Shown piece by piece: positions 1,619 to 21,741 of a stretch of DNA of 22,392 bases (position 1 is its first letter; each line of letters begins with the position of its first letter). Origin of the DNA: a virus. The notes under the pieces were generated by a model, which was not told where the DNA came from, did no database searches, and saw only the letters and a list, made by a program, of their open reading frames with translations. The stretch spans positions 1 through 22,392 of the IMG/VR virus record IMGVR_UViG_3300043438_001939. The stretch is one strand, 5' to 3'. Both the position numbers and the translations under genes were made by a program.

Positions 1619-2470
1619 ATGTGCGTAAGTTATATAGGGGGTAAATCAAAAATTGCCCCACAATTAATAATTCCTAATATCCCAAAAGATATTGAAGTTT
1701 TTATTGAGGTTTTTGGGGGTCAATTCTGGACATTTTTTAAAATGAACTTGGATGATTACCCAAATCTAAAAACAGTCGTTTATAACGACTTCAATAAACT
1801 GAACTATAATATGTATCAGTGTCTAAAAGACCATAAACAACTTCTTCAAGAATGTGAAAAATTCATAGTACAGGAAAAAGGAGTTTTTCCGACTAATCCT
1901 GTTTGTGAAGAACAATTTAACAGGTTTCAGGCTGAAATATTTAATGAAAATTTCAGCGTACAACCTTACGATTATGAAGTTGCCGCAAAATACGTCTATG
2001 TGTTGACACAAGTTTTTTCTGGAGCAAACCCATCTAAGTCAAAATTTATTAACCTAAAAGGTAAATATCATTCAAAATTTACCTCTTTTATGAATAAATT
2101 AAAGAAACCTGAATGGCAAAAAATGTTTGAAAGTATTACCTTTGTTGAAAATATGGATTTTGAAGATGTGATTGTGAAATATGACTCACCCACAACGTAT
2201 TTTTATGTTGACCCTCCATATTATATTGTAGGTGAAGGATCATACTATTCAAATCACGACTTCGATAGGGGAGATCACGAACGTTTGGCAAATGTATTAC
2301 ACAATATAAAAGGTAAATTTTCGTTATCATATTATGACTTTGATTTACTTAAAGAGTGGTTCCCCGAGGACAAATATAATTGGGTAAAAAAGGAGTTTGC
2401 TAAGGCGGCTTCAGCCAAAAAAGGGGAGAAACAAAATATGGGTGAGGAATTACTTATTATGAATTATTAA
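1619..2470 (+). CDS. dam: Dam-like DNA adenine N6-methyltransferase (D12 class), 283 aa
   Basis: This enzyme should transfer a methyl group from S-adenosylmethionine to adenine N6 in duplex DNA. The D12-class motif order is clear: YIGGKSKIAP at residues 5-14, FIEVFGGQFW at 28-37 (SAM-binding motif I), VYNDFNKLNYNMY at 54-66, and the catalytic motif IV YVDPPYY at 196-202. The length fits Dam proteins (about 270-290). Motif I is unusual: the common form is E-P-F-x-G-G-G, whereas here Val replaces Pro and the glycine run is followed by QFW. The start ATG lies just before YIGGK, so little N-terminal extension is possible. The likely roles are self-modification against host restriction or marking of phage DNA. 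No cognate nuclease is adjacent, and the target sequence cannot be read from the protein. Confidence 0.88.
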   Translation: MCVSYIGGKSKIAPQLIIPNIPKDIEVFIEVFGGQFWTFFKMNLDDYPNLKTVVYNDFNKLNYNMYQCLKDHKQLLQECEKFIVQEKGVFPTNPVCEEQFNRFQAEIFNENFSVQPYDYEVAAKYVYVLTQVFSGANPSKSKFINLKGKYHSKFTSFMNKLKKPEWQKMFESITFVENMDFEDVIVKYDSPTTYFYVDPPYYIVGEGSYYSNHDFDRGDHERLANVLHNIKGKFSLSYYDFDLLKEWFPEDKYNWVKKEFAKAASAKKGEKQNMGEELLIMNY

Positions 2471-2508: not shown

Positions 2509-3885
2509 ATGTCATTACGCTTTACAAACTTATTAAAAGACCTAATCGTAGAAAGCTCTAGATTTCAGGTTCTTTATGACAAATTCGTTAAACCACAACA
2601 AAAAGGACAAAGAGGAATTCTTCCGTTTGAAACTTTATTTGCGTTGATTGCTGCGGATCCAACGTCAAAAATTCCTGATGGAATGGATATTGATAATGTA
2701 AAACCACAAGATATGGACCGAGTTAAAATCGGTAAATACGCTCAATGGTTATTGAAGAATTTTGTAACACCTAGATTACCTGAAGATCATCCTTTAATGA
2801 TTTCAGATCCACAATCACCTCAATACAAACAAGCTTTAAAAGAATACCAAGATTTATTTTTGGAGGATTTGTATAAAGTAACAGGAGACCTTCAAAAGTT
2901 TGAAAGATTTAAAAATAGATTACCACAAGAATTACGTGATATCAATAAGTTAACACCTGAAACTCTTTACGATCAAGTTAAAGATTTTAGTTTAGAAAAA
3001 ACTAAGGCAACTAAAGACGAGAAAAAAGAGGCTTCTAAAACTTACGAACACCCTGGTGCGGATGTTGTTTATCGTGGACAAGATTGGACGGTGGCTAAAA
3101 TTTCTGACACAGGTCAAATTGGTAAAGATGCCGCTTGTTTCTATGGTGGGTCTTATCAAGAACCATCTAAAGGTGAAACAAGATGGTGTACATCATCACC
3201 TGGTTTAACTTGGTTTGATCGTTACATTAAAGATGGTCCATTGTATGTGGTTATACCTAATAAAGGTGTTACATACCAAGGGGATAAAGAGTATGGTGAT
3301 GTATCGGGTCTTCCGTCACTTCGTTACCAATTCCACTTCCCATCCAACCAATTTATGGACCCGGCAGATAAACAAATAAATTTAATTGATTTTTTAAATA
3401 CAAATGAAGAAAGCTTAAAACAATTCTTCAAACCTGAATTTATGAAATCAATAACAGGTGAGAAAGGTAGGAAAGTTCAAGTTGATTACCCTGGTGATTC
3501 GGCGTCTAAATTCATAGCGTTATATGGTTTTGATGAATTCTTTGAAACATTACCAGATAACCTTGAAAGATTCACATTTAAAAACACTAGTAAGGGAGAT
3601 AATTTCGCTCTTAACATACCTGACGATATCTCAAGATTTAAAGATCTTTCAGCATTGAATTTGGTAGGTTGTGTAGCATCAATTCCTGATTCTATTTGTG
3701 GGTTAGAAAACTTACAATACTTATCACTTCCTGATAATCCCAAACTACAAAAATTACCTGAATGTGTTGGTAATATGCCAAACTTAATGGTTCTTAACAT
3801 ACCGGGTGGTAAAGAAAGAGGAGTCATTCCTGATTCAGTATATCAAAGAGCGGAACAAGATGATGATTTCCACATTTTTGAATAA
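2509..3885 (+). CDS. Leucine-rich-repeat protein with N-terminal processing-site-like tag, 458 aa
   Basis: The N-terminus (MSLRFTNLLKDLIVESSRF) is an amphipathic stretch ending in LIVE-SS at residues 12-17, close to the (L/I)-x-E cleavage signal of T4-type prohead proteases. A helical region covers residues 20-190. A central domain around residues 195-265 holds CFYGGSYQEP...TRWCTSSPGLTWFDRY..GPLYVVIPNK; similar W-C-T/I motifs occur in phage proteins of unknown function. The last about 120 residues show leucine-rich repeats: LSALNLVGCVASIPDSICG and NLQYLSLPDNPKLQKLPECVG. I infer a virion-associated or internal head protein, with the LRRs for protein binding. An ATATTTAT element precedes the gene and a strong terminator follows, so it is probably monocistronic. 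No catalytic function can be assigned. Confidence 0.7.
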   Translation: MSLRFTNLLKDLIVESSRFQVLYDKFVKPQQKGQRGILPFETLFALIAADPTSKIPDGMDIDNVKPQDMDRVKIGKYAQWLLKNFVTPRLPEDHPLMISDPQSPQYKQALKEYQDLFLEDLYKVTGDLQKFERFKNRLPQELRDINKLTPETLYDQVKDFSLEKTKATKDEKKEASKTYEHPGADVVYRGQDWTVAKISDTGQIGKDAACFYGGSYQEPSKGETRWCTSSPGLTWFDRYIKDGPLYVVIPNKGVTYQGDKEYGDVSGLPSLRYQFHFPSNQFMDPADKQINLIDFLNTNEESLKQFFKPEFMKSITGEKGRKVQVDYPGDSASKFIALYGFDEFFETLPDNLERFTFKNTSKGDNFALNIPDDISRFKDLSALNLVGCVASIPDSICGLENLQYLSLPDNPKLQKLPECVGNMPNLMVLNIPGGKERGVIPDSVYQRAEQDDDFHIFE

Positions 3886-3952: not shown

Positions 3953-4543
3953 ATGAAAATCATAATTACAGAAGAACAATATGGCAAACTGACTAAAGAG
4001 AAACTTAGAAAACTTTGTTATGCTGTATGGAACAATCAAAAAAAGAGGGGTAAAGAACCACACATTGATGATGTAATTTATGATGTGAGTGGTATTCAAA
4101 AAGATAGTAATGAAGATTATAAAATTATCAGACCAATATGGTATGAGTACAATGGGGGGTTTAATAGTTTAGCGGATAGAATAGTAGATGAAATTGAGGG
4201 TAAAATTTTTGACCTTAAAAGTGATTGGGGCAATTTAGATACTAAAATAAAGGTCGATCAAATTTATCTAAATTCATTTTACGGTTTACCAAAGTCAATT
4301 AACATTTCTGTGGATCTTAATAATCAAGGTACTATGGACTTTATGATGTATGAGGAAGGTACCGATAACGAAATTAACGTAAATGATACAATAGAAGCCG
4401 CATATATGGAAGCATTAGGTAACTATGAATCTACAGACTTTAAAGATTATTTAGAGGGTGAAGTTTACGATCTTTTATATAAAAAAATAAAAAAATATGG
4501 AATCCCACTTGAGGATGTATCCGTTGATTTAAAAGAATTTTAA
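3953..4543 (+). CDS. Unknown protein with ITEEQ-type N-terminal module, 196 aa
   Basis: The protein opens with KIIITEEQYGKL (residues 2-13), the clearest example of the short N-terminal module shared across this window. The rest is acidic and mixed alpha/beta: a helical region with WNNQKKRGKEPHIDDVIYDVSG at about 27-48 and a segment around 105-140 with alternating strands (INISVDLNNQGTMDFMMY). The final part is helical. I do not recognise the family and see no catalytic motif, signal peptide or membrane segment. The position between a terminator plus ATATTTAT element upstream and a host-type promoter downstream suggests a single-gene unit expressed late. Packaging into the virion is inferred from the N-terminus only. 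Confidence 0.6.
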   Translation: MKIIITEEQYGKLTKEKLRKLCYAVWNNQKKRGKEPHIDDVIYDVSGIQKDSNEDYKIIRPIWYEYNGGFNSLADRIVDEIEGKIFDLKSDWGNLDTKIKVDQIYLNSFYGLPKSINISVDLNNQGTMDFMMYEEGTDNEINVNDTIEAAYMEALGNYESTDFKDYLEGEVYDLLYKKIKKYGIPLEDVSVDLKEF

Positions 4544-9725: not shown

Positions 9726-10841
9726 TTATATGTAATCTGTGAAATATTCGTTAACATTTTTAGTGATTTGTGTATAGTCAGGGTAATCAGGGATTCTAAA
9801 ATCAATACATTCAAACAAACTATCGTTATCTTTTATTAGGCTAGTGTAACTACCATGGTACTCTAGAATGGAATCGTTATAACCTGAACCGGCGGTATCA
9901 CTTAAAAACGTTTTAACATCACCAACAAAATCTCTAATTTTAATGTATCTAACTCGATATCTTGTTTTTTTAGTACCATCTCTTAAAGTAACTTCTCTTG
10001 GTGTTTCAGTGACGTTACCATCGAAATACTCACTTAAACCATCATACACTAATGAAGAAATCTCATCCTCGTAAGACGTATTTTCTGACATATTATAAAG
10101 ACTTGATAACTCACTACCTAAATCGGATAATTCATCGTTAAATAATTGGTTCATTGAATCACTATCGTTAAGTAACCCATTAAGGTCTTCAGGTCTAATT
10201 CTGAAGTAACCTTCGGTACCCTGGTCTTCAGATAAGAACTCAAAAAAGTCCGAATTTAAATCCTCCAACGATAGTTCCTTATAACCAATCTGTTTATAAA
10301 TAACATCTTTAAGTCTAGTGATGTTTGAATCATCTAAAACACCAATTACCTCACTTGGTTTTGTGTAGCCATCATAATACCATTCGTGGGAATCCTCACC
10401 AAAAATAATTTTAGCGATATCTGAAGCACTAGTATTTCGTGAACTAGAACAGAAAAAATCCGCAAGTTCTTCACGATCTCTTAAATGTAGATAAAAACCA
10501 TCAGGTCTTATTTCGACATCAGTTAATAAATTTGAGGTAATATAAATAACAGTCGATTCGTAATCGTGTTCTAACCCGTATGATAGATAATAATTTTTAA
10601 ACTCGTTAGGTAAATTATCATAATCTGAAGATGTTATTAAATTATTTTCCATTAAAAAATCAAAAACATCTTTATCTAATTCAGATGAAGGTATATCATT
10701 TATATTGATTTCGTCAAGTACTTCGTATTTTTTTAAAAACTTAAAGAAGTTAATTAGGGTATTGAAGTACGGTTCAATATCCTCGTCGTAGTCACCATCA
10801 TTAAATAACTGAACTAAATTTCTTGCTCTTTCTAAACTCAT
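9726..10841 (-). CDS. Large acidic protein of unknown function, 371 aa
   Basis: A very acidic, Asp/Glu/Ser/Tyr-rich protein starting MSLERARNLVQLFNDGDYDE. Helical segments alternate with aromatic-acidic stretches such as VFDFLMENNLITSSDYDNLP and YFDGNVTETPREVTLRDGTK. The only notably basic part is near residue 290 (RDGTKKTRYRVRYIKIRDF). No LRR, zinc site, membrane helix or nucleotide-binding motif is visible. The N-terminus resembles the tagged proteins only in being a short amphipathic helix; it lacks the ITExQ core and an IxE site. An ATATTTAT element sits 5 bases before the start, and a terminator precedes that, so this gene begins a transcript that also covers 8982-9677. A virion role is possible. 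Confidence 0.5.
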   Translation of the reverse strand: MSLERARNLVQLFNDGDYDEDIEPYFNTLINFFKFLKKYEVLDEININDIPSSELDKDVFDFLMENNLITSSDYDNLPNEFKNYYLSYGLEHDYESTVIYITSNLLTDVEIRPDGFYLHLRDREELADFFCSSSRNTSASDIAKIIFGEDSHEWYYDGYTKPSEVIGVLDDSNITRLKDVIYKQIGYKELSLEDLNSDFFEFLSEDQGTEGYFRIRPEDLNGLLNDSDSMNQLFNDELSDLGSELSSLYNMSENTSYEDEISSLVYDGLSEYFDGNVTETPREVTLRDGTKKTRYRVRYIKIRDFVGDVKTFLSDTAGSGYNDSILEYHGSYTSLIKDNDSLFECIDFRIPDYPDYTQITKNVNEYFTDYI

Positions 10842-10846
10842 ATGTT

Positions 10847-10854
10847 ATAAATAT
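10847..10854 (-). promoter_or_regulatory. ATATTTAT element (candidate phage promoter), minus strand
   Basis: Read on the minus strand, AATATTTATAACAT leads to the ATG at 10841 with a 5-base spacer, the same spacing as plus-strand copies at 644, 3940, 11737 and 16707. It follows directly after a terminator. Confidence 0.55.
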
Positions 10855-10861
10855 TAGGTTA

Positions 10862-10893
10862 ATAAAAAAGGTGTTCCATAATGGAACACCTTT
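10862..10893 (-). terminator. Rho-independent terminator, minus strand
   Basis: A perfect 12-bp inverted repeat, AAAGGTGTTCCA / TGGAACACCTTT with a 3-base loop. On the minus strand it is followed by a T tract. It ends the mini-gene at 10914 before the next promoter. Confidence 0.88.
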
Positions 10894-10913
10894 ACATAGA
10901 TGATACGCGAATA

Positions 10914-11060
10914 TTATCTTCTGTAATATTTTTGTATAACTTTCTTGACAGACTCTTGAACATTAGTATTATTTTGGGCGGTATTACTCCCCCCTTGTTG
11001 TGTTTGAGTTTGTGTTTGAGGTTGTTGTGCTTGTTGTTTGTTTTTACACCCGCATGACAT
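10914..11060 (-). CDS. Cys- and Gln-rich mini-protein, 48 aa
   Basis: The N-terminus is MSCGCKNK, with a CxC pair. A low-complexity Gln/Thr/Pro tract (AQQPQTQTQTQQGGSNTAQ) follows. The C-terminus VQESVKKVIQKYYRR is a basic amphipathic helix. There is no signal peptide, so the cysteines are not a lipobox. The gene is too short for standard length cut-offs but is bounded by a clean start, a stop and a downstream terminator, which supports it. The CxC pair could bind metal or form a disulfide, and the Q-rich part is probably a flexible linker. Function unknown; the design of head group, linker and helix suggests an adaptor between two proteins. Confidence 0.65.
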   Translation of the reverse strand: MSCGCKNKQQAQQPQTQTQTQQGGSNTAQNNTNVQESVKKVIQKYYRR

Positions 11061-11074
11061 AATTAATAGTTTTA

Positions 11075-11662
11075 TTAGTTTATTGTTTCAAATTTATGTT
11101 TATAAATGGTTTTTCTTATCGTACCATTATAATCATTTTTTATTATTTTTCCTCTTAACGCGTTTGAAAGTTTTTGTCTAACATTTCTTTCAGAACCTGT
11201 TGTGAATCCTCCATTTATTAAATATCTTGCCGCTTCGAATAAATTATCAAAAGTATTCGAAACACAACCATTAATTTCAGTTAAAGTGAACTTATTTATA
11301 TTACCGTTTTTGTTTTTATTATATAACGACAACTTTAGTTTAACTTCGTCGTTATAGGTATTTCTTCTAAATTCATTAACTTTCGCCAAATTATATCCAT
11401 AATTAGAATCGTTCGACTTATATTCTATAATATAATTATTTTCTAATGAAACTAAATTATTAACACCACAAAATTGAATGACCTCAAATAAAAAAGAACT
11501 TTCGCCAAATTTATTAAATGAATTTTGTAGATGGAGATTGTCGTGTTTGTTGTTCCGTAACATCCAAAAATGTTTATATTGCCTTTTAGTGACATTTATA
11601 GAGCTACCTATATATACCTTATTATCGTTTAAATTTGTAATTTTATATATTCCTGAAGTCAT
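11075..11662 (-). CDS. GIY-YIG homing endonuclease, 195 aa
   Basis: The GIY-YIG nuclease domain covers roughly residues 1-85: GIYKITNLNDNKVYIGSS gives GIY at 4-6 and YIG at 17-19. It is followed by the conserved Arg region (NVTKRQYKHFWMLRNNKHDN, R27 likely catalytic), LQNSFNKFGESSFLFEVIQF and the Glu-containing segment SLENNYIIEYKS. The C-terminal part (LFEAARYLINGG...RNVRQKLSNALRGK) resembles the helix-turn-helix modules that give such nucleases site specificity. It is freestanding and AT-rich. It lies 14 bases before the Cys/Gln-rich mini-gene and carries an ATATTTAT element, so it may have inserted between that mini-gene and its original promoter. Confidence 0.88.
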   Translation of the reverse strand: MTSGIYKITNLNDNKVYIGSSINVTKRQYKHFWMLRNNKHDNLHLQNSFNKFGESSFLFEVIQFCGVNNLVSLENNYIIEYKSNDSNYGYNLAKVNEFRRNTYNDEVKLKLSLYNKNKNGNINKFTLTEINGCVSNTFDNLFEAARYLINGGFTTGSERNVRQKLSNALRGKIIKNDYNGTIRKTIYKHKFETIN

Positions 11663-11676
11663 AATAACTATATTCT

Positions 11677-11684
11677 ATAAATAT
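11677..11684 (-). promoter_or_regulatory. ATATTTAT element (candidate phage promoter), minus strand
   Basis: Minus strand reads TAATATTTATAG, with a 14-base spacer to the ATG at 11662. It is divergent from the plus-strand copy at 11737, leaving both in an 87-base gap. Confidence 0.5.
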
Positions 11685-11736
11685 TACAAGTCATGCGAAT
11701 CGTAATGGATGTGATGTAATAAATTAAAATTATTTG

Positions 11737-11744
11737 ATATTTAT
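11737..11744 (+). promoter_or_regulatory. ATATTTAT element (candidate phage promoter)
   Basis: ATATTTAT with a 5-base spacer to the ATG at 11750. The 18 bases from 11735 are identical to 642-659. Confidence 0.55.
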
Positions 11745-11749
11745 AATAT

Positions 11750-12964
11750 ATGTCAATTAAAAAATTCATAAAGAACTTTATTATAGAACAAGATGAAAAT
11801 CTTATTCAACTCACCCCCGAACAATATAAAGAAGTGTTAGAGGATGTTGGTGGTGTTGCCGATAGAGTTGCAAAACTAAAACCGTATAGAGGTAAAGGGA
11901 TTGTTATTACTGGACCTTTAGATGTTAGTAATAATAAAAAAATCGGACAATTAACAGGTATTGTTAGAGTAATGGGTAGATTGGACATAAGTGATTCAAA
12001 CGTCCCAAATATTAACGGAATTGAGGTTGATGGTTATGTTAACAATTATGGATCCACAATGTGGAGTATAATAAAACAACAAGAATTGGCAAAAAAACTT
12101 GATGAGTTAGAAGAGTTAAGATCTGACAACGAATGGAATATTGCAACTGGTGGTGATGATGATGCGGAAAGAACGGAGGCGTTATACAACTTTTTAATTG
12201 AAGAGGGAATTCCTGAGGAAGTTGAAGATGAAGAAGGAAATGAAGTTACTGAAGACAAATACTTTATTTACCCTGATGGGGTGGGTAGTTATGGTTACGG
12301 AAAAAAATATGAATGGGTAGGAGGATCGGCGCTAGTTCCAAACACATACGACGTTTATACTCAGGATGAAATGGATAAGGCTGCAGAAGCATATATTGAA
12401 AATTTGGTTGATGACGTTGGATATGATGCTTTTAGAGAATGGGTATGGAATGACGCAATTGATGTCCAACATTGGCGTAGATGGTTATATGAATTCTATG
12501 AGGACGATATAAGATCTAGCCCGGGTGGAACTTACGATATAGGTTTAGCTTTATCGGATTATCAAAAATCTCAGGTAAGTACGTTGGAAAATACCATTAA
12601 GAAATTAAATAATAAATTTATTAGTGGGGGTTTAACCGACGAAGAAAATAAAACAATTCAAAAAAAGATTGAAGGACTTCAGAACACAATTAACAATATT
12701 ATGGAAGACCCTGAAGGTGACTACGATGAAGATCAGATAGTTCAGGAGATTAATAGTAGGGTTGATGATTATGCGGACGATATTAAATCATTTATTGATG
12801 ATTATGGGTTTGATAAAAAATTTATTATGGATTTTATTGACATTAGTGAACTTACTAACACAATAGTTAGTTCCGATGGTTATGGAATACTATCAAATAA
12901 TGGAAGTGATATTTATGAAGACAGAATAAATGGTACTTGGTATTATGTGATACCAACAGATTAG
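11750..12964 (+). CDS. Large acidic tagged protein with strand-repeat region, 404 aa
   Basis: The N-terminus MSIKKFIKNFIIEQDE contains IIE-Q at residues 11-14, a candidate processing site. It is followed by LIQLTPEQYKEVL at 18-30, a copy of the shared module displaced downstream. Residues 45-100 show short repeating strands (GIVITGPLDVSN, GIVRVMGRLDISDSNVPNI, GIEVDGYVNN), a solenoid or LRR-like pattern. Two acidic helical regions follow, one with WEWVWNDAIDVQHWRRWLY-like aromatics (about 225-245) and one predicted coiled coil (STLENTIKKLNNKFISGG and KKIEGLQNTINNIME, about 278-325). No enzyme motif is visible. A candidate phage promoter lies 5 bases upstream. I infer a virion or internal head protein. 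Confidence 0.62.
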   Translation: MSIKKFIKNFIIEQDENLIQLTPEQYKEVLEDVGGVADRVAKLKPYRGKGIVITGPLDVSNNKKIGQLTGIVRVMGRLDISDSNVPNINGIEVDGYVNNYGSTMWSIIKQQELAKKLDELEELRSDNEWNIATGGDDDAERTEALYNFLIEEGIPEEVEDEEGNEVTEDKYFIYPDGVGSYGYGKKYEWVGGSALVPNTYDVYTQDEMDKAAEAYIENLVDDVGYDAFREWVWNDAIDVQHWRRWLYEFYEDDIRSSPGGTYDIGLALSDYQKSQVSTLENTIKKLNNKFISGGLTDEENKTIQKKIEGLQNTINNIMEDPEGDYDEDQIVQEINSRVDDYADDIKSFIDDYGFDKKFIMDFIDISELTNTIVSSDGYGILSNNGSDIYEDRINGTWYYVIPTD

Positions 12965-12987
12965 GTATTTATTTGTTTATATCTTTG
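12965..12987 (+). promoter_or_regulatory. Composite promoter region: GTATTTAT and TATCTTTG
   Basis: GTATTTAT (12965-12972) is followed 7 bases later by TATCTTTG (12980-12987). The latter matches the host -7 box, but I see no TTG at the expected -33 position. The ATG at 13008 is 20 bases downstream. Both promoter types could be used. Confidence 0.5.
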
Positions 12988-13007
12988 CGTTATTTTTTTA
13001 TTATAGG

Positions 13008-13787
13008 ATGGCAAAGAAAAAGAAAATAGAGTTTTTAATGAACACCGATTGGATGTTCGAAAAACCAATAGATAGAGAATATAAGGAATACAAACTCCTT
13101 TCGTATTTTCAAAAAATGGGCGAAAAATTAGATAGATTGGAACTATATCCTGGGTTTATTGAATTGTCGTTACATCTAATGAATGTCCAAGCACTTATTA
13201 AAGATAAGAAAATCGTTTATACGGACAAAAAATTAAATAATATTGATGACGAGATCTTAGTTAAAGATCTAAAAGTAAGAGCTCTACCTGAACTTTCGCA
13301 AGACGAGATGATTGAGTTTAGAGATATCCTTACATTTTCGGCACCACGAATAATGGAATACTTTAGTATTGCAAAATCGGTGTGGTCTATCGTGTTTGAT
13401 TCGTTAGATATGAAAATCAAAAGAAATAAAAAGAATATACTACACCCAAAGGGGTACTTCTTTTATACTGAAAATGAATCCAAAAAGACATACGTTTGGG
13501 AATATACAATCAAAAAAGAAACAAAAAATAACCCACAGAGTATGACAAACATCAATTTAATCTATTTTGATGAGATGGGCGAATTGACGATCCCAAAAAT
13601 TATCACTACTTTTTCTTCATTCGAATCAAAAGATAAAAGAATGAGTCCGGTGTTCCATATGATGTCAAGTGGTATATTTCCTGTAAATGAAACCTTACTT
13701 CCGTTGTTTAAACGAAGAATCGCTGGACTGATCTCTCAAACAAAAGTGATTCAAAGAAATCAAGAAACGGAACAAGATGGGTTTTAA
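13008..13787 (+). CDS. Unknown protein, first gene of the glutamine synthetase cluster, 259 aa
   Basis: The product has a basic start (MAKKKKIEFLMNTDWMFEKP), then a helical region (YKLLSYFQKMGEKLDRLELY; IELSLHLMNVQALIKDKKIV). Later come strand-rich segments such as KGYFFYTENESKKTYVWEYT and NINLIYFDEMGELTIPKIIT. The final part is basic (LFKRRIAGLISQTKVIQRN). I do not recognise the family and see no catalytic motif. It overlaps the next gene by 11 bases, which in turn overlaps the glutamine synthetase gene by 4, so the three are translated from one message. Its untagged N-terminus and host-like -7 box suggest it is not a packaged protein. Confidence 0.58.
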   Translation: MAKKKKIEFLMNTDWMFEKPIDREYKEYKLLSYFQKMGEKLDRLELYPGFIELSLHLMNVQALIKDKKIVYTDKKLNNIDDEILVKDLKVRALPELSQDEMIEFRDILTFSAPRIMEYFSIAKSVWSIVFDSLDMKIKRNKKNILHPKGYFFYTENESKKTYVWEYTIKKETKNNPQSMTNINLIYFDEMGELTIPKIITTFSSFESKDKRMSPVFHMMSSGIFPVNETLLPLFKRRIAGLISQTKVIQRNQETEQDGF

Positions 13788-13959
13788 TAAGAGAGTATTA
13801 AAGAAAGAAAATATTTTAATTCACATTAATGATATAATGACTTACTTAAATGTCGATGCGGTATTCTGCACCGACAATTTTTCACGCGAAGTTTGTGATC
13901 TATATAATGAAGGAAAAACAAAAGAAGAAATAATAAATTACATAAACGAAAATAAATGA
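13777..13959 (+). CDS. Small protein between 13008 gene and glutamine synthetase, 60 aa
   Basis: A 60-residue soluble protein: MGFNKRVLKKENILIHINDI, then MTYLNVDAVFCTDNFSREVC and a C-terminal helix NEGKTKEEIINYINENK. Two cysteines are present, but in no recognised metal-binding pattern. The C-terminal EGKTKEEIINYIN motif resembles short helix-turn elements often seen in small phage proteins. The gene overlaps both neighbours (11 bases upstream; ATGA downstream), so translation is coupled to glutamine synthetase. A regulatory role towards that enzyme, by analogy with small GS-inactivating proteins of cyanobacteria, is conceivable only from position; there is no sequence evidence. Confidence 0.55.
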   Translation: MGFNKRVLKKENILIHINDIMTYLNVDAVFCTDNFSREVCDLYNEGKTKEEIINYINENK

Positions 13960-15101
13960 AAATTAAGTTAGAATATGTATGGGTTGATGGATATAACCCA
14001 GAACCAAACCTTAGAAGTAAGGTTAAGATTGTTGATGAGGATACTATAACAGGATCAATAGAAAACCTCCCAATGTGGAACTTCGATGGATCGTCAACAA
14101 ATCAGGCAGAAACTGATAATTCAGATTGTCTATTAAAACCAGTTAGATGGTATGTACCGGAAGAAATTTCCACCATATATGTTCTATGTGAGGTTTTAAA
14201 TCCTGATGGTACACCACATAAAACAAATGAGAGATCAAAAATTGGAAATCAATTTTCTGATTTATGGTTTGGTTTTGAACAAGAATACTTCATTATGAAA
14301 GAACCTAATGGGCCAATTTTGGGTCACGACAGAAGATCCCTAGAAGGACAAGGTAAATACTATTGTGGTGTTGGATCAAACGTAGTTGGTCGTGACTTTG
14401 TTGAAGAACATACCAATATGTGTTTAGAATATGGTATCGACATTACTGGCACAAATGCTGAAGTGGCGTTAGGTCAATGGGAATATCAGGTCCTATCAAA
14501 AGGTAAGTTAAAAGGTGGGGATGATCTATGGATGAGTAGATATTTTTTGGAAAAGATTTCGGAAAAATACGGGTATGAGATTACCATACACCCAAAACCA
14601 TTAAGATCTGGTGAATGGAATGGATCTGGATTACATACAAATTTCTCAACTGATATGATGAGAAACGAAAGTAATGAAAAATATTTTATGTCATTATTTG
14701 GGGCTTTTGAAACAAGACATAATGATCACATCAAGGCGTATGGGTCTGATAATGAGTTACGTTTAACGGGTAATTTTGAAACTCAGTCAATTGACAAATT
14801 CAGTTGGGGGGTATCTGATCGTGGAGCGTCAATTAGAGTTCCCCAAGATACCGCAAAGGAATGGAGGGGATATGTTGAAGATCGTAGACCAGGATCAAAC
14901 GCCGACCCATATAAAATCATCCAAGAGATCGTTACATCACTTAGTTTAGCGGAACAAATTTACGAGATGAAATCTATAATGAACAATAATGTTGATATGA
15001 ATGGTCTTAGTGAGAAATATGGAACTATGTCTAATGACGAATTATTAAGTGAATATCAAAATGATGACGATCACGAACTTACAACTGAAAAAAATAATTA
15101 A
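13956..15101 (+). CDS. glnII: Type II glutamine synthetase, 381 aa
   Basis: The enzyme joins ammonia to glutamate with ATP to form glutamine. The type II motifs occur in order: WNFDGSSTNQA at residues 41-51, GFEQEYF 106-112, GTNAEVALGQWEYQ 165-178, NGSGLHTNFS 222-231, NDHIKAYGSDNELRLTG 256-272, DRGASIRVP 288-296 and VEDRRPGSNADPY 307-319. The metal-binding Glu residues, active-site His and substrate Arg all appear present. Length is close to eukaryotic and actinobacterial/Bacteroidota GSII (about 340-370), not GSI (about 470), and the adenylylation region of GSI is missing. A Gly/Asp-rich acidic tail of roughly 35 residues follows the catalytic core. As a phage gene it may raise glutamine for nucleotide synthesis. 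Fusion or decay is not apparent. Confidence 0.93.
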   Translation: MKIKLEYVWVDGYNPEPNLRSKVKIVDEDTITGSIENLPMWNFDGSSTNQAETDNSDCLLKPVRWYVPEEISTIYVLCEVLNPDGTPHKTNERSKIGNQFSDLWFGFEQEYFIMKEPNGPILGHDRRSLEGQGKYYCGVGSNVVGRDFVEEHTNMCLEYGIDITGTNAEVALGQWEYQVLSKGKLKGGDDLWMSRYFLEKISEKYGYEITIHPKPLRSGEWNGSGLHTNFSTDMMRNESNEKYFMSLFGAFETRHNDHIKAYGSDNELRLTGNFETQSIDKFSWGVSDRGASIRVPQDTAKEWRGYVEDRRPGSNADPYKIIQEIVTSLSLAEQIYEMKSIMNNNVDMNGLSEKYGTMSNDELLSEYQNDDDHELTTEKNN

Positions 15102-15106
15102 TTAAA

Positions 15107-15340
15107 ATGGAAAATAATAACGAACAAGTAAATCACCCAAATCATTATGGTGGTGAAAATAACCCTTATGAGTCAATCAAAGTTATTGATGCTTGGGAAT
15201 TAGGATTCTCATTAGGAAATACGGTAAAATATATATCACGTGCAGGAAAAAAAGGAAAAGATAAAGAACTCGAGGACCTCAGGAAAGCCCAATGGTACCT
15301 TCAACACCACATCGAGACACTCGAAAAAGACAGGTCTTGA
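15107..15340 (+). CDS. DUF3310 family protein, 77 aa
   Basis: The pattern VNHPNHYGG...PYESIKVIDAWELGFSLGN and TVKYISRAGKKGKDKELEDL followed by RKAQWYLQHHIETL is diagnostic of DUF3310. This small domain is widespread in phages and is also found at one end of the T7 gene 1.7 nucleotide kinase. The family's stand-alone activity is not firmly known. The protein length equals the domain, so nothing else is fused. The gene begins 5 bases after glutamine synthetase and is probably in the same operon, which would fit a role in nucleotide metabolism. The end of its reading frame adjoins a membrane-protein frame with no clear start. Confidence 0.85.
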   Translation: MENNNEQVNHPNHYGGENNPYESIKVIDAWELGFSLGNTVKYISRAGKKGKDKELEDLRKAQWYLQHHIETLEKDRS

Positions 15341-15347
15341 TAGAGAG

Positions 15348-15632
15348 ATTAGTATATTAGACGCCATCACAACTCCGGGTGAGTTAATCCGTGAAACTCT
15401 CATTAATTTTATGTGGGGATTCCTTGGAAACTCAATCGTTGTGTTTGTGGCGAAAGAACTGGACTTTTTGGTTTTAATTAACTACATTGTCTATTACATA
15501 TTAATTTCTTATATTGTTAATAGGAAGAAATATGAAACTATGTTGGGTAAGTTTATTGTTTTACCGGGATCGGCAGCAATAGGTGCATTCACAGGTTATA
15601 AATTAGCTCAAGCAATAACATCAATAATTTAA
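15348..15632 (+). CDS. Small membrane protein with uncertain start, about 94 aa
   Basis: The coding-like sequence begins near ISILDAITTPGELIRETLIN and continues with two or three hydrophobic segments: FMWGFLGNSIVVFVA, LVLINYIVYYILISYIV, and FIVLPGSAAIGAFTGYKLA. The first in-frame ATG is only at 15411, inside the first membrane helix, so it would truncate an apparently real N-terminus. The only earlier standard start, GTG at 15240, lies within the DUF3310 gene and would add a basic, non-membrane extension. I place the start at ATT 15348 as a working choice. Other explanations are +1 frameshifting from DUF3310 near its end, or an indel in a run of five A residues at 15324-15328. The protein is probably an inner-membrane protein of unknown role. 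Confidence 0.45.
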   Translation: MSILDAITTPGELIRETLINFMWGFLGNSIVVFVAKELDFLVLINYIVYYILISYIVNRKKYETMLGKFIVLPGSAAIGAFTGYKLAQAITSII

Positions 15633-15637
15633 GTAAA

Positions 15638-15844
15638 ATGAAATTAACGGAAGAACAAAAAAATCAGATCCTTAATCAATATGAGGGATTAAAAAATGAC
15701 GAACAAACATTAGGAGAAGTTCACGAAATAATTGTAGACTTTTGTGTCGATGAATTCATTGTTGATTTATCAAATGATGAGGATGGAGACCTTTTTGAGG
15801 AGTTCTCAAATGAAGTGTGGGATTATTTAGAAACAATAGCGTAA
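15638..15844 (+). CDS. Small acidic protein with LTEEQ start, 68 aa
   Basis: A highly acidic protein. MKLTEEQKNQIL resembles the shared N-terminal module, but no (I/L)-x-E site follows in the usual place and no ATATTTAT element precedes the gene, so I do not group it with confidence. The rest is EVHEIIVDFCVDEFIVDLSNDED followed by FEEFSNEVWDYL, probably a single long helix plus a short one. One cysteine is present. It lies 5 bases after the membrane ORF and 11 bases before the methyltransferase gene and seems to be co-transcribed. A DNA-mimic protein is conceivable from the charge, but there is no supporting motif. Confidence 0.5.
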   Translation: MKLTEEQKNQILNQYEGLKNDEQTLGEVHEIIVDFCVDEFIVDLSNDEDGDLFEEFSNEVWDYLETIA

Positions 15845-15855
15845 TTAATTAGGGA

Positions 15856-16707
15856 ATGATAGAAACAGGAAAAATAATAAATGGAGATTGTACCGAAGTA
15901 ATGAAAACATTACCGGAAGGATCTGTGGATCTAATCGTAACATCACCACCTTATGGTGTGGGGATTGCTTACGACGTACACGAAGATGATGTTGAGTTTG
16001 AAGAGTATGTAAAGTTTGCCAAAAATTGGTTAAGTGAAGCGTATAGATTGTTAAAAGATGATGGTCGTATTGCGTTGAACATCCCTTACGAGATTAATAG
16101 ACAGAAAAAGGGTGGAAGAATTTTCTTTGTTTCTGAAATGTGGCAAATTATGAAAGAGATTGGTTATGGGTTCTTTGGGATCGTTGACCTTGAGGAACAA
16201 TCTCCACATAGAAGCAAGACAACAGCTTGGGGATCTTGGATGAGTCCATCAAGTCCGTATATTTATAACCCTAAGGAGTGTGTGATATTGGCATATAAGA
16301 AACAACACATTAAAAAGATTAAAGGTCAACCACAATGGATGGGTGAATTAACTGAAATTGAAAATGAAGATGGAACAAAAAGGAATAAAAAGGTCTATGA
16401 AGAAACTGATAAGAAAGAGTTTATGGAGCTTGTTTTTGGCCAGTGGAATTACTTTGCAGATACAAAGTCACTCACCAAGGCAACCTTCTCAATGGACATC
16501 CCAACAAAAGCGATCAAGATATTATCATACAAGAACGATGTAGTTTTGGATCCATTTGCTGGGTCAGGTACAAGTTTGGTGGCGGCTGAAATTTTAGATC
16601 GTAGATGGTTGGGTATAGAGTTAAGTCCAAACTATGCCGAAGTTGCTCGAGGAAGGGTTCAGGTTTTTGTTGATGAAAAAACAAAAGTTAAAATCGAAAG
16701 TGAGTGA
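15856..16707 (+). CDS. DNA methyltransferase, beta-class N4-cytosine/N6-adenine type, 283 aa
   Basis: The catalytic motif VTSPPYGVG is at residues 28-36 and the SAM-binding motif VVLDPFAGSGTSLVAA at 229-244 near the C-terminus. This order (motif IV before motif I) defines the beta class of amino-methyltransferases. SPPY is common in N4-cytosine and some N6-adenine enzymes, so the base cannot be fixed from sequence. GKIINGDCTEVMKTLPEGSV at 5-24 is the standard opening. The region between holds the target recognition part with WGSWMSPSSPYIYN. The protein is full length, with no restriction nuclease nearby, which suggests an orphan phage enzyme that protects DNA or alters expression. It is the second DNA methyltransferase of the window and a different class from 1619-2470. 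Confidence 0.9.
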   Translation: MIETGKIINGDCTEVMKTLPEGSVDLIVTSPPYGVGIAYDVHEDDVEFEEYVKFAKNWLSEAYRLLKDDGRIALNIPYEINRQKKGGRIFFVSEMWQIMKEIGYGFFGIVDLEEQSPHRSKTTAWGSWMSPSSPYIYNPKECVILAYKKQHIKKIKGQPQWMGELTEIENEDGTKRNKKVYEETDKKEFMELVFGQWNYFADTKSLTKATFSMDIPTKAIKILSYKNDVVLDPFAGSGTSLVAAEILDRRWLGIELSPNYAEVARGRVQVFVDEKTKVKIESE

Positions 16708-16714
16708 TATTTAT
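16707..16714 (+). promoter_or_regulatory. ATATTTAT element (candidate phage promoter)
   Basis: Begins at the last base of the methyltransferase stop codon and ends 5 bases before the ATG at 16720. Confidence 0.52.
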
Positions 16715-16719
16715 AGTAG

Positions 16720-16923
16720 ATGAAAAATTATTTAATAACAGAAAAACAATTTAAAAAGATTGTAGAACAGGTTGAGGATGGCGAAGACACTAAAAAACCA
16801 ACTAAAGATTCGTCAAGCATTTTTGGTAATTTGTTAGGTGGTAAAGAAGTAGAAATGGATTCGGAAGATGATGAATTATCTGGTGGTGATCCGGTACAAC
16901 AATTCTTTGATTCGTTAAAGTAA
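16720..16923 (+). CDS. Small tagged acidic protein, 67 aa
   Basis: The first 17 residues (MKNYLITEKQFKKIVEQ) are the N-terminal module plus an IVE-Q site at residues 14-17. What remains is only about 50 residues: acidic, Ser/Gly-rich and mostly disordered (EDGEDTKKPTKDSSSIFGNL, EMDSEDDELSGGDP), with a short final helix QQFFDSLK. The gene thus looks almost like a tag with a minimal cargo, so after cleavage the product would be a small acidic peptide, comparable to the internal peptides of T4 heads. That comparison is inference. Its last 9 bases overlap the convergent DUF192 gene. Confidence 0.62.
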   Translation: MKNYLITEKQFKKIVEQVEDGEDTKKPTKDSSSIFGNLLGGKEVEMDSEDDELSGGDPVQQFFDSLK

Positions 16924-17259
16924 CGATATTGTATCACCTTCTTTAATACCATATTTTTTACAATCACCTCCTTGTAACTCTAAAACCATTTCACCATTAC
17001 CTTCGTAGTGGTTACAATCGTCAGATAGGCAAGGTTTGCAGTTGTGATGTATTTTTGTGATAACATCATCGTTAATAAAAATGATATCTAAATGAACCAC
17101 ACAATTTTTCATCCAGAAAGAGTGTGGTCCGTTTTCCATAAAGAATAACATACCATCATAGGAATCATTAAATTTACGATTCATCATACCATTCTGAGTG
17201 TCCTTTGACGTTATTACGGTTTTAACATTAAAAAGATTATCATTTATTTTAACTTTCAT
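16915..17259 (-). CDS. DUF192 family protein, 114 aa
   Basis: The sequence MKVKINDNLFNVKTVITSKDT followed by QNGMMNRKFNDSYDGMLFFM, then HSFWMKNCVVHLDIIFIND and GEMVLELQGGDCKKYGIKEGD shows the DUF192 (COG1430) signature: a G-M-M-x-R turn, FWMKN and a C-terminal G-x-x-x-x-x-G-D. Cellular members are often exported small beta proteins; here no signal peptide is present when starting at ATG 17259. That ATG is favoured because it is preceded by an ATATTTAT element on the minus strand. Upstream in-frame codons give an unlikely hydrophobic extension. A Cys/His cluster (HHNCKPCLSDDCNHYEG, about 71-87) replaces the usual linker and could bind metal; this is an unusual insertion. Biochemical function is unknown. 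Confidence 0.8.
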   Translation of the reverse strand: MKVKINDNLFNVKTVITSKDTQNGMMNRKFNDSYDGMLFFMENGPHSFWMKNCVVHLDIIFINDDVITKIHHNCKPCLSDDCNHYEGNGEMVLELQGGDCKKYGIKEGDTISLL

Positions 17260-17263
17260 ATTG

Positions 17264-17271
17264 ATAAATAT
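17264..17271 (-). promoter_or_regulatory. ATATTTAT element (candidate phage promoter), minus strand
   Basis: Minus strand reads GATATTTATC and is 4 bases from the ATG at 17259. This element also fixes the DUF192 start. Confidence 0.5.
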
Positions 17272-17315
17272 CATAAAAAAAGTTCTAAATATTTTTTTCA
17301 TTAGAAAAGATTCAC

Positions 17316-17323
17316 TATATTTG
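17316..17323 (+). promoter_or_regulatory. Host-type -7 box TATATTTG
   Basis: Matches TAnnTTTG, 16 bases before the ATG at 17340. No TTG is seen at the -33 position, so it is a partial match. Confidence 0.5.
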
Positions 17324-17339
17324 TAGAAATAAATCACAG

Positions 17340-17615
17340 ATGGTAAAATTAACATTCAATCACAACATTAGAATTATGAACGAAAAATTCGGAACATTAC
17401 TTTCTGAATCTTTTGTTGACCCAATTCAGTTTAAGATCTTCTTAAAGATGGTGGATGGGGCGTTGAACTTAAAAGAAGATTTATCTTACTTTGATGGTAA
17501 CACATTTTTGGTTCACATACCACATAAGATTTTAAAAGATTCTGTGGTAATCACAAATGTGTCTGAAATAAGTTTGAGTGAGCAAGTTAGAAACAAAATT
17601 GAAAGTTTAGTATGA
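17340..17615 (+). CDS. Unknown small protein, 91 aa
   Basis: A compact protein: MVKLTFNHNIRIMNEKFGTL, LSESFVDPIQFKIFLKMVDG, ALNLKEDLSYFDGNTFLVHI and PHKILKDSVVITNVSEISLS, ending in a helix EQVRNKIESLV. The alternation of helix and strand suggests a small alpha/beta fold. I do not assign a domain. The LLSESF segment resembles an (L/I)-x-E site, but the N-terminal module is absent and the promoter is host-type, so I do not group it with the tagged proteins. It shares ATGA with the following lipoprotein gene, implying translational coupling, and may act with it. Confidence 0.55.
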   Translation: MVKLTFNHNIRIMNEKFGTLLSESFVDPIQFKIFLKMVDGALNLKEDLSYFDGNTFLVHIPHKILKDSVVITNVSEISLSEQVRNKIESLV

Positions 17616-18049
17616 TGAAGAGTTTGATTTATTTTATCGGTATTATGTTGGTGATGAGTTCTTGTGTCAAACAAGAAATAAGACCTCAACAACCAATTGC
17701 ACCACAACCAATTATTACGAACCCAACTTTGGTCGATTCTACGGTAACTATAAAGAATACAACTTGGGTGATTGGTAAAGTGTTAAACACAGACCTTAGT
17801 GAAGAAATGAGATCTGATACATTAAAGTTTATTACTAACACAACGTACTCGTTCAACGGGGTTCAGTCAACATACGGGATTTATTCAACACCAACAGGAT
17901 ATAAGTTGAATTTAAATAACACACCTTGGGGACATATAAGTTGTAATTTGGTTGAGTATAACTTAACAAGTGGTAATATTTTGAATAAACAATTTAATGA
18001 TATTTTTACAAGTGAATCTGTTATTAAAATTTGGATGTACAAACAATAG
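17612..18049 (+). CDS. Phage-encoded lipoprotein, 145 aa
   Basis: A classic signal peptide with Lys-3, a hydrophobic core (SLIYFIGIMLV) and lipobox MSSC gives Cys-18 as the likely lipidated residue. The following linker is Pro/Gln-rich (QEIRPQQPIAPQPIITNP). The C-terminal domain (VTIKNTTWVIGKVLNTDLSE, LKFITNTTYSFNGVQSTYGI, GYKLNLNNTPWGHISCNLVE) has a beta-barrel-like strand pattern like small periplasmic lipocalin-like lipoproteins. It should sit in the outer or inner membrane facing the periplasm. Phage lipoproteins often block superinfection; that role is a guess here. The ATG at 17615 is an equally good start. It overlaps the previous stop by 4 bases. Confidence 0.75.
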   Translation: MMKSLIYFIGIMLVMSSCVKQEIRPQQPIAPQPIITNPTLVDSTVTIKNTTWVIGKVLNTDLSEEMRSDTLKFITNTTYSFNGVQSTYGIYSTPTGYKLNLNNTPWGHISCNLVEYNLTSGNILNKQFNDIFTSESVIKIWMYKQ

Positions 18050-18052
18050 TTT

Positions 18053-18103
18053 CCTTATACTATAAAAATAAGGTGGTGGAGTCGTCAACAAATCCTTGTT
18101 GAC
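18053..18103 (+). other. Two tandem stem-loops after the lipoprotein gene
   Basis: CCTTAT-N9-ATAAGG (18053-18073) is followed by an 8-bp stem GTCAACAA-ATCC-TTGTTGAC (18084-18103). Together with the terminator at 18112 these form three hairpins in about 90 bases with no ORF. It may be a short stable RNA, a 3' UTR structure that protects the lipoprotein mRNA, or an additional processing site. Confidence 0.45.
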
Positions 18104-18111
18104 CCAAAATT

Positions 18112-18139
18112 AAGGTGAGAGAAATCTCACCTTTTTTTA
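18112..18139 (+). terminator. Rho-independent terminator
   Basis: AAGGTGAGA / TCTCACCTT stem with GAAA loop, followed by seven T residues. It ends the 17340-18049 transcript just before the next ATATTTAT element. Confidence 0.9.
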
Positions 18140-18147
18140 TTTGCCGT

Positions 18148-18155
18148 ATATTTAT
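18148..18155 (+). promoter_or_regulatory. ATATTTAT element (candidate phage promoter)
   Basis: Lies 19 bases before the ATG at 18175, with an A-rich spacer, just after a terminator. Confidence 0.5.
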
Positions 18156-18174
18156 ATAATAAAAAAAATACACT

Positions 18175-19110
18175 ATGGAGAAGAAATTTGTATTAACGGA
18201 GGAAGAATCTAAACGTATTCTTACTCTACATAAGAAAAAAATTCAAGAAGAAAGAGAAAATATAAGTGAAGATACCGGCCAAGATATTGGTAGAGTTGCT
18301 GCTGGTGCGGGAGCTGGAGCCGCAACAGGTGCTGCGGTAGGTAGTATTGTTCCTGTTGTTGGAACGGCTATTGGTGCTGTAGTAGGTACCGTTGTTGGTG
18401 GTGTTGCTGGTTGGTTCACAACTGGTGGAGGTGCTGCGGATAACGTACTTGGAGTTCTAAAAAAATGTAGAACTCAAAAAGGTAATTTGGGGAAAACAAA
18501 AAATTCTGACGGGGCATTAACGGACATTGCTGATAATATATATTCTGCGGTTGCTGGACTTGGAAATACAAATCTTGAAGGGATAGAAAGAAATTTAAAT
18601 AAATTATTGACAATACCTGATTTATGTAAGATGGCTTCATTATATTATAGGAGACGTGGAGAAACATTATATGACGCTTTAGACGGTGACATTGATGGTG
18701 ATGACGATTGGAGAAGTCACGTTTGGTTACCAATCACTACCCTTATAAGTAACACTAAAAAGGCAAATAAAAATTTTTACTTAGATAAAGCTAAAAAATG
18801 TGGTTTTAGTAGTGTTGAGGCATGGAAAAAATCCGGATGGAAATGTAATAAAAAGACATCTGATGGTACAAAACCACCTGTTGACAATACAAACCCACCT
18901 GTTATTCCTGGTGGAGGAGGTGGAAGAGGTGATAGATATGGATTTGACTACCAAGAGGCATTAAAAGCGTTAAAATCTAAAGGTTGTTCAGTTGTTGGTG
19001 GTGGTGGATCACAAGATGAAGAACAATTTGCGGATGATTGGAGAGCCACTCAAGATCAAAAAGTTGATACAAAAATATCTCAAGACAATATTAAAAATTG
19101 GGCTAACTAA
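18175..19110 (+). CDS. Tagged protein with glycine-zipper membrane segment, 311 aa
   Basis: The N-terminus KKFVLTEEESKRILTLH is a degenerate form of the shared module, with possible IQE and ISE sites at residues 23-25 and 30-32. Residues about 41-80 form a glycine-zipper segment (AAGAGAGAATGAAVG...VGTVVGGVAGW), a small-residue-rich hydrophobic hairpin that packs tightly in membranes. A cysteine-containing helical domain, an acidic loop (DGDIDGDDDW), CGFSSVEAWKKSGWKC around 212-227, a Pro/Gly linker and a final helical region with SKGCSV follow. A packaged, membrane-inserting protein could assist DNA entry or pore formation; this is inferred. The next gene, for a peptidoglycan-binding protein, starts 24 bases later and seems to be co-transcribed. 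Confidence 0.68.
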   Translation: MEKKFVLTEEESKRILTLHKKKIQEERENISEDTGQDIGRVAAGAGAGAATGAAVGSIVPVVGTAIGAVVGTVVGGVAGWFTTGGGAADNVLGVLKKCRTQKGNLGKTKNSDGALTDIADNIYSAVAGLGNTNLEGIERNLNKLLTIPDLCKMASLYYRRRGETLYDALDGDIDGDDDWRSHVWLPITTLISNTKKANKNFYLDKAKKCGFSSVEAWKKSGWKCNKKTSDGTKPPVDNTNPPVIPGGGGGRGDRYGFDYQEALKALKSKGCSVVGGGGSQDEEQFADDWRATQDQKVDTKISQDNIKNWAN

Positions 19111-20502: not shown

Positions 20503-21741
20503 ATGAAAAACATTATCATTACCGAAAATCAATTACGACTTATAACGGAAGCCTTGGGGGTTCCTGATTCTATTTTAGATGCTGCAGAAAAGATATACGA
20601 TTTAATCGGACAAGATCTAAAAAGTATCACAACTAAGGACGAAAAATATGAATTTTCTAATGAGGTTGATATTGAATTAGGTGATAAAAAGAAAATAAAT
20701 ATCGAAGATTTTGAACTTGTTGTTAATATTGAGGAATACCCAAAACAAATAAAAGGTAAACCTGTTATTATATCTATGGGTATGGGTCAATCTTTTCATT
20801 TTGATAGAAAAGTAATGATGAAAAGAATTCAGAAATCAGAGACCGCGGAAATTGAAATTACATATGGTGTTGGTGAAAATTGGGAACCTAGTGATCTTTA
20901 CGATGTGTATGTTGAGGACAGATCAGAACATTTGGGATCAATCGCTCACGAATTAAAACACAAATATGACAAACAGTCAAAAGAACTTGATTTGATTGGT
21001 AGAGACGCTGAATACAGAGCAACCCATAATTACGGTAGCTTTGGTATTCCAATAATTGACGGTACTTTTATGAGGTATTTGTATTATACAACTATTGCGG
21101 AAAATTTAGTTAGAACAACTGAAGTTGCATCACAACTTAAATCTGATAATATTACAAAATCACAGTTTAAAGACTTTCTAAGTAATAACAGGGTGTATAG
21201 AGAATTACTTGAAATTAAGAATTTCACTTTTGAGAAACTTATTGAAGGTTTACGTAACGATATGGATAAGGTGGATAAAGTTCTTATTCACATAGATGAG
21301 GACCCGTCTGAACTTACTGAGGAACAAAAAATCCGTAGAATTTTGGAAATAGTGTATATTAATTTAGTTAATACTAAAATGTCAACATTTATTGATATGA
21401 CTAGTAATTCTAGAGACGAACTTAGATCGTTATTTAGGGGTTTAATGGGGTCATCATTAGTTGACGATGAAGAAGAAAAAAAGATGGACAAATTGAAAAA
21501 CAAGTTTGCAAACCACATTTCAAAATACAAAGGTAATACAACACAATTTTTCAAAGATGAAATTGAAAACTTCAATTATATTGCAACAAAAATGTTGAAG
21601 AAAATAGGTAAACTTTATGCAATGGCTAAAGATGATCAACCTGTTAGTGAATCTATAATTAATTGGGAATTACATCAAAAACTTATGGATAAAAAACACG
21701 GTAAGTCAAAATTAGAAACTGAGTTTAAGTTTAAGAGATAA
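20503..21741 (+). CDS. Tagged protein with zincin-like HELKH motif, 412 aa
   Basis: The N-terminus NIIITENQLRLITEALG carries the shared module and, at residues 14-17, ITE-A, an excellent match for a T4 gp21-type site. Residues 146-156 (SIAHELKHKYD) form an H-E-x-x-H zinc-binding helix (H149, E150, H153), the mark of zincin metalloproteases; the third ligand may be one of the acidic residues in GRDAEYRA near 167-173, which I cannot confirm. The region before it has strand-rich sequence and DLYDVYVEDRSEH. The rest is helical and highly charged, with an acidic stretch DDEEEKKMDKL near 328. I infer a packaged metalloprotease-like protein. A related non-catalytic helix is possible because no third ligand is certain. 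Confidence 0.68.
   Translation: MKNIIITENQLRLITEALGVPDSILDAAEKIYDLIGQDLKSITTKDEKYEFSNEVDIELGDKKKINIEDFELVVNIEEYPKQIKGKPVIISMGMGQSFHFDRKVMMKRIQKSETAEIEITYGVGENWEPSDLYDVYVEDRSEHLGSIAHELKHKYDKQSKELDLIGRDAEYRATHNYGSFGIPIIDGTFMRYLYYTTIAENLVRTTEVASQLKSDNITKSQFKDFLSNNRVYRELLEIKNFTFEKLIEGLRNDMDKVDKVLIHIDEDPSELTEEQKIRRILEIVYINLVNTKMSTFIDMTSNSRDELRSLFRGLMGSSLVDDEEEKKMDKLKNKFANHISKYKGNTTQFFKDEIENFNYIATKMLKKIGKLYAMAKDDQPVSESIINWELHQKLMDKKHGKSKLETEFKFKR

Follow-up and report, generated by a model that had tools for sequence, protein, structure and literature searches.

Domain layout, conservation and gene neighbourhood

The window analysed here comprises 22,392 nt of a viral record. As the initial annotation had it, an open reading frame (ORF) occupies positions 2509–3885 of the + strand; its product of 458 amino acids begins MSLRFTNLLKDLIVESS and carries the central stretch ...ETRWCTSSPG...GPLYVVIPNK.... 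The protein consists of a short N-terminal tag, a helical region, a W-C-T domain with the signature T224-R-W-C-T228 and a C-terminal solenoid of leucine-rich repeats (LRR) (Table 1). A whole-protein AlphaFold model calculated with 44 homologues as input has a mean pLDDT of 83. Relatives were found at 61 IMG/VR loci (identity 45–100%), and a profile scan widens this set to 428 matches. One orthologue is already deposited in UniProt, under the name 'Leucine-rich repeat [uncultured Caudovirales phage]'.

Table 1 Features of the window
Feature	Residues	Position	Strand	Basis or remark
D12-class adenine methyltransferase		1619..2470	+	PF02086 E 7.7e-22; conserved upstream neighbour
LRR gene, complete, 458 aa		2509..3885	+	tag, helical region, W-C-T domain, LRR
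Putative capsid-targeting propeptide MSLRFTNLLKDLIVE	1–15	2509..2553	+	predicted cleavage after E15
Helical region	16–165	2554..3003	+	alignment A1; helices in AlphaFold model
W-C-T domain, virus-restricted, undescribed	166–318	3004..3462	+	alignment A6, domain model
T224-R-W-C-T228 signature	224–228	3178..3192	+	sequence; W226-C227-T228 invariant in alignment A3
LRR solenoid	319–458	3463..3882	+	AlphaFold, VIA-align, PDB phmmer
Tagged ORF (MKIIITEEQYGKLTKE...)		3953..4543	+	N-terminus; same tag type in G001
Conserved neighbour, 98 aa		6714..7010	+	gene neighbourhoods
Second tagged ORF (MSIKKFIKNFIIEQ...)		11750..12964	+	C-terminal ~290 aa match C-terminus of another phage's WCT protein
Tagged ORF (MKNYLITEKQFKKIVEQ...)		16720..16923	+	N-terminus
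Tagged ORF (MEKKFVLTEEESKRILTLH...), glycine-zipper stretch		18175..19110	+	N-terminus; weak Gly-zipper Pfam match
Tagged ORF (MKNIIITENQLRLITEA...)		20503..21741	+	N-terminus

Strong purifying selection acts on every domain (dN/dS 0.09–0.14 per domain, 68 homologue pairs). The LRR are the least conserved domain, with a mean pairwise identity of 45% compared to 65% for W-C-T. Positive selection on the LRR is rejected: no other domain of the four has a higher dN/dS, yet their value of 0.14 is still strongly purifying. In the 292-kb relative G001, the gene is present in a single copy. A conserved single-copy gene under such constraint is compatible with an effector and no less with a core structural function.

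Gene order is maintained in most relatives examined, where genes for DnaJ, the D12 methyltransferase, the LRR protein and a protein of ~95 aa follow each other. In most relatives the ~95-aa gene immediately follows the LRR gene; its counterpart in the window, of 98 aa, is displaced by inserted tagged ORFs. In G001, a PcfJ-like ORF (PF14284 E 2.5e-8, 28460–30238) is one gene away from the LRR gene, an arrangement that the window does not have.

Leucine-rich repeats and the W-C-T domain

Two or more LRR units had been proposed at the C-terminus from the sequence. By eye, the solenoid has caps and four repeats, three of them canonical and one degenerate, and 'two or more' is too low. Structure prediction of the C-terminus supports the LRR fold: residues 316–458 are modelled at pLDDT ~77–95 with six strand/helix turns. 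Alignment of this region to solved LRR proteins with VIA-align, including SHOC2, Leptospira LRR proteins and XopL, yields Z scores of 11–13 (rmsd 2.1–3.2, 101–128 residues), with the top Z of 13.1 for 7txh, 6lx0 and 7tyg, and a phmmer search of PDB sequences retrieves LRR proteins at E 1e-16 to 1e-9 (best 1.4e-16). The hallmark of the LRR superfamily, a solenoid of strand-turn units with LxxLxLxxN spacing, is thus present by model, structural alignment and sequence search. Pfam matches of the single sequence are weak. The best, LRR_14 (E 4.9e-5, residues 375–433), scores 22.7 bits against a curated cut-off of 40, and no Pfam LRR model passes for the 458-aa protein; passing this cut-off is a criterion of convenience and not essential to the fold.

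By profile and by fold, the LRR region also resembles the bacterial LRR effectors XopL, XopAC and XopAE. The 458-aa protein does not have the partner domain of those families, and the full-length match fails, with scores of 27.5–36.4 bits against cut-offs of 450–600 that derive from the LRR part only.

The central domain had been described as recurring in phage proteins, and profile search extends this well beyond the original claim: the domain occurs in hundreds of viral contigs, and a protein of Pseudomonas phage PA5oct is retrieved at E 3.9e-31 by a profile from alignment A6, which was built without PA5oct. In A6, G, W and C are invariant, and T, F, Y and G are conserved in at least 90% of the sequences. 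No Pfam or NCBIfam model covers the domain. Prediction, proposed initially for residues 195–270, gives a confident domain model (pLDDT 89, pTM 0.81); searching the PDB with this model by Foldseek and VIA-align returned no fold match, which does not prove the fold to be new.

Fold search among predicted proteins recovers W-C-T in (i) PA5oct, CcrBL9 and other phages, (ii) Marseillevirus LCMAC201/202, where one protein is named ankyrin repeat protein, and (iii) an FNIP-repeat protein of Indivirus. The partner regions differ between carriers: SCTP-2 encodes seven WCT paralogues with DUF4116-type repeats, and locus L203 joins the domain to a 26-residue helical repeat. A motif of the preceding helical region, DPT...K..W...EDLYK, is common to WCT proteins of PA5oct and distant phages (alignment A1) and has the variant form DPSGN..KYL.W in loci L171–L176. 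At locus L166 (2933–7222), a single ORF of 1430 aa combines W-C-T with Amidoligase_2 and, by eye, a nucleotidyltransferase-like N-terminus. Bacterial genomes were scanned with two patterns, each bounding what its scan could find; the first returned no relative of W-C-T, and the second returned one match, in Thiomicrorhabdus sp. Milos-T2 (L266). This copy possibly represents a prophage remnant, and no tag is seen at its N-terminus.

The invariant W and C of alignment A6 could be taken as signs of an enzyme, for example with an acyltransferase-like fold, whose substrate for modification would be a host protein recognized by the LRR, in the way of LRR-bearing type III effectors. The profile matches of the LRR to XopL/XopAC-type LRRs and the top VIA-align rows, weak GNAT/MYST-like arrangements with Z up to 4.2, point in the same direction. 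Z scores below 5 lie, however, within the range of chance arrangements, Foldseek gives no match below E 0.17, and we do not claim this fold. Nor do we claim a Cys-His-Asp active site: C227 is invariant but His276 is absent from distant members of alignment A6, therefore W-C-T proteins have no Cys-His site in common. As Pfam, NCBIfam and PDB also contain no catalytic family match, we regard an enzymatic W-C-T domain as improbable; our guess is a conserved core or adaptor.

Kinship of the domain with other families is not claimed either. PcfJ (PF14284), suspected from a C...Y...strand pattern, reaches an hhalign probability of 0.1% with three PcfJ sequences only; a BFVD search with W-C-T contains one weak row for a PcfJ-like protein. 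Profile matches to gasdermin and Cas2 (E 0.5–0.8) and Foldseek rows for Anbu/proteasome (E at least 0.17, rmsd ~15) are chance matches.

N-terminal tag, head genes and virion evidence

In T4, propeptides of 10–20 residues are removed by a protease that cuts after Glu, incorporation of IPIII into the head requires its first 10 residues, and fusions bearing only these 10 residues are packaged and delivered (PMC9026906, PMC5694885). The 458-aa protein has this feature of T4-type capsid-targeted internal head proteins, a short N-terminus ending hydrophobic-x-Glu. The prohead-protease-like site noticed initially (LIVE-S) holds up in 44 homologues: E15 at P1 is invariant (44/44), position 13 (P3) is I in 43 and V in one, and position 14 (P2) varies between V, L, I, S and K. 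A fixed P1 Glu and a free P2 at the predicted cut I-V-E|S are as expected of a T4 gp21-type site. Residues 1–20 are modelled with low pLDDT (47, 59). Among divergent WCT proteins, 39/43 have an N-terminal [LIVFM]-x-E site compared to 28% of internal windows; as the 43 sequences are mutually related, a P value for this difference cannot be read as a true probability.

Large relatives encode both a gp21-type protease (PF03420, E 1e-22 to 1e-26) and a gp23-type capsid protein (E 1e-62 to 1e-64); neither is seen among the ORFs of the window record, a 22-kb fragment. The N-terminal region of gp23 in six relatives has an invariant LINE|A near residue 60, which we infer to mark the end of the gp23 propeptide. 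Both genes also occur together in seven of eight further large phages tested, among them the WCT carriers PA5oct, SCTP-2 and three IMG/VR contigs. CcrBL9 is the exception, a single case: gp21 and gp23 are both absent, and its W-C-T protein is without the tag region.

The PA5oct protein EST35_0205, a homologue of the helical and W-C-T module, is deposited as 'structural protein' with the remark ESI-MS/MS. Its gene directly follows that of the terminase large subunit within the terminase/structural cluster. The homologue behind this virion evidence is a single, distant one, 29% identical across 38% of the 458-aa query, and its mass-spectrometry label is as given by the depositors. EST35_0205 and its Wroclawvirus homologues have the same helical (DPT..K..W) and W-C-T module and a tag-like N-terminus MKLFEVFTLYED; unlike the 458-aa protein, they carry no LRR, have another C-terminal region and are encoded beside the terminase.

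The invariant [IV]-x-E site, the gp21-type protease and gp23 in relatives, the PA5oct homologue and the tagless CcrBL9 protein together give good, if indirect, support to packaging by means of the tag, and we consider that the 458-aa protein is probably packaged as a processed head protein. Conservation extends beyond the predicted cut (R18 in 44/44, L22 in 42/44 homologues), so that the N-terminus could simply be part of the first helix. The protein would then be an early intracellular one that is never packaged, with an N-terminal helix inside the fold and a likeness to gp21 sites that reflects amphipathic composition. Its neighbours, DNA-metabolism and chaperone genes (D12 methyltransferase, DnaJ), agree with such a role. 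Against it stand the mass-spectrometry annotation of EST35_0205, the joint absence of protease and tag in CcrBL9, and the occurrence of like N-termini on many unrelated proteins of G001 and not on recognized enzymes. On this evidence, we judge an unpackaged protein to be unlikely.

Packaging for head assembly, with no role in the host, is a second alternative, in which the LRR and W-C-T domains of a processed head-core protein would bind core or capsid proteins. This is consistent with the conserved, single-copy gene and its low dN/dS, and with the location of the PA5oct gene inside the terminase/structural cluster. In this clade, however, the LRR gene is unlinked to the head cluster; in G001, ~120 kb separate the two. 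Moreover, the seven paralogues of SCTP-2, the change of partner repeats between phages and the presence of W-C-T in non-caudoviral giant viruses, as retrieved by fold search, would be unexpected for a fixed assembly part. We consider an exclusive assembly function rather unlikely, if the least so of the alternatives weighed.

Proposed delivery into the host and the set of tagged proteins

The reading we favour, to which we give about an even chance as a whole, is that a T4-type jumbo phage carries this protein inside its head as an 'ejection' protein, which is processed there and ejected to bind a partner through its LRR. Residues 1–15 would act as a capsid-targeting sequence that draws the protein into the prohead core, where the phage's gp21-type protease would cut after E15. 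The mature protein, comprising the helical region, W-C-T and the LRR, would remain in the head and reach the host cell together with the DNA. Inside the cell, the LRR would bind a partner protein; a common activity or scaffold may come from the conserved W-C-T region. Of the initial proposal, a protein-binding module delivered in the head and acting as an injected effector, head packaging has gained good indirect support, and the effector action is plausible; ejection into the host with a target bound by the LRR we hold to be an evenly balanced matter.

T4 itself offers the closest comparison. IPI, IPII, IPIII and Alt have a short N-terminal propeptide ending hydrophobic-x-Glu, accompany a gp21-type protease and a gp23 capsid as found in relatives of the window phage, and combine a common tag with unrelated mature parts, as here. 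In contrast to the T4 proteins, the mature part is W-C-T plus LRR, tag-like N-termini are found on dozens of proteins instead of four, and packaging and ejection are inferred. Phage polyvalent proteins are multidomain proteins thought to be packaged and injected (PMC5512222). The L166 ORF resembles them in joining W-C-T to Amidoligase_2, whereas the 458-aa protein carries just W-C-T and LRR; LRR and DUF4116 are absent from the text of that paper, and the W-C-T domain was not found in the passages covered.

Phages of freshwater Bacteroidetes that encode bS21 have been described (PMC9723584). G001, which has the LRR gene, resembles them in that its S21 gene neighbours those for the prohead protease and gp23 and lies on the opposite strand. 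The position of S21 within the gp23/protease region of G001 points to a probable Bacteroidetes host for the window phage, a giant freshwater phage. The word 'leucine' is absent from the main text of PMC9723584, so that the paper does not treat the LRR gene by that name. If packaged and ejected, the protein would be the first described phage-delivered LRR protein as far as our searches went, and it would offer a handle on W-C-T, a domain without a curated model that hundreds of viral contigs encode and that fold search also retrieves from giant viruses.

Tag-like N-termini are frequent in G001, where 66/272 ORFs (at least 90 aa, first 45 residues), about a quarter, carry them. The same motifs at internal positions number 14/272, 9/214, 4/161 and 5/127, and a shuffled control gives a mean of 14.7 and a maximum of 26; since the regular expressions were composed after inspecting N-termini, this excess is descriptive. 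Dozens of otherwise unrelated G001 ORFs (L070–L084) begin with MKIIITESQ..., MKKxIRLTESDLxRIVRR... or MNLQENIRRI.... No tag is seen on recognized enzymes of the window, and a Fisher test of tag against hand-assigned classes of window ORFs, done after looking, gives p 0.012. Judged from these sequences, the N-termini shared across G001 and window ORFs suggest a very large set of tagged cargo, and in these Bacteroidetes phages the different cargo proteins loaded into each virion may number in the dozens, well above the T4 figure.

The product of the second tagged ORF of the window aligns with W-C-T proteins of other phages at L202 (BLASTP 26% over 360 columns, E 9e-22) and L174 (E 5e-8); the C-terminal domain that they have in common suggests domain shuffling among tagged proteins. 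Tentatively, W-C-T could form the centre of a modular delivery system, in which target-recognition repeats are exchanged while a common N-terminal packaging module and the W-C-T core stay the same, and the 458-aa protein would be one of dozens of tagged head proteins in this clade. The exchangeable part might be the LRR in the window phage, repeats of the DUF4116 type in SCTP-2 and the 26-residue helical repeat in L203, with ankyrin or FNIP repeats taking this place in giant viruses.

Two tagged LRR proteins are also encoded by an unrelated 462-kb huge phage, LR756500 (LR756500.1, L066). Positions 10535–18720 of LR756500.1 hold a cluster of tagged ORFs (MKYIKEYEEFILEA...), several of which have a C-terminal NADDFGFxDN in common.
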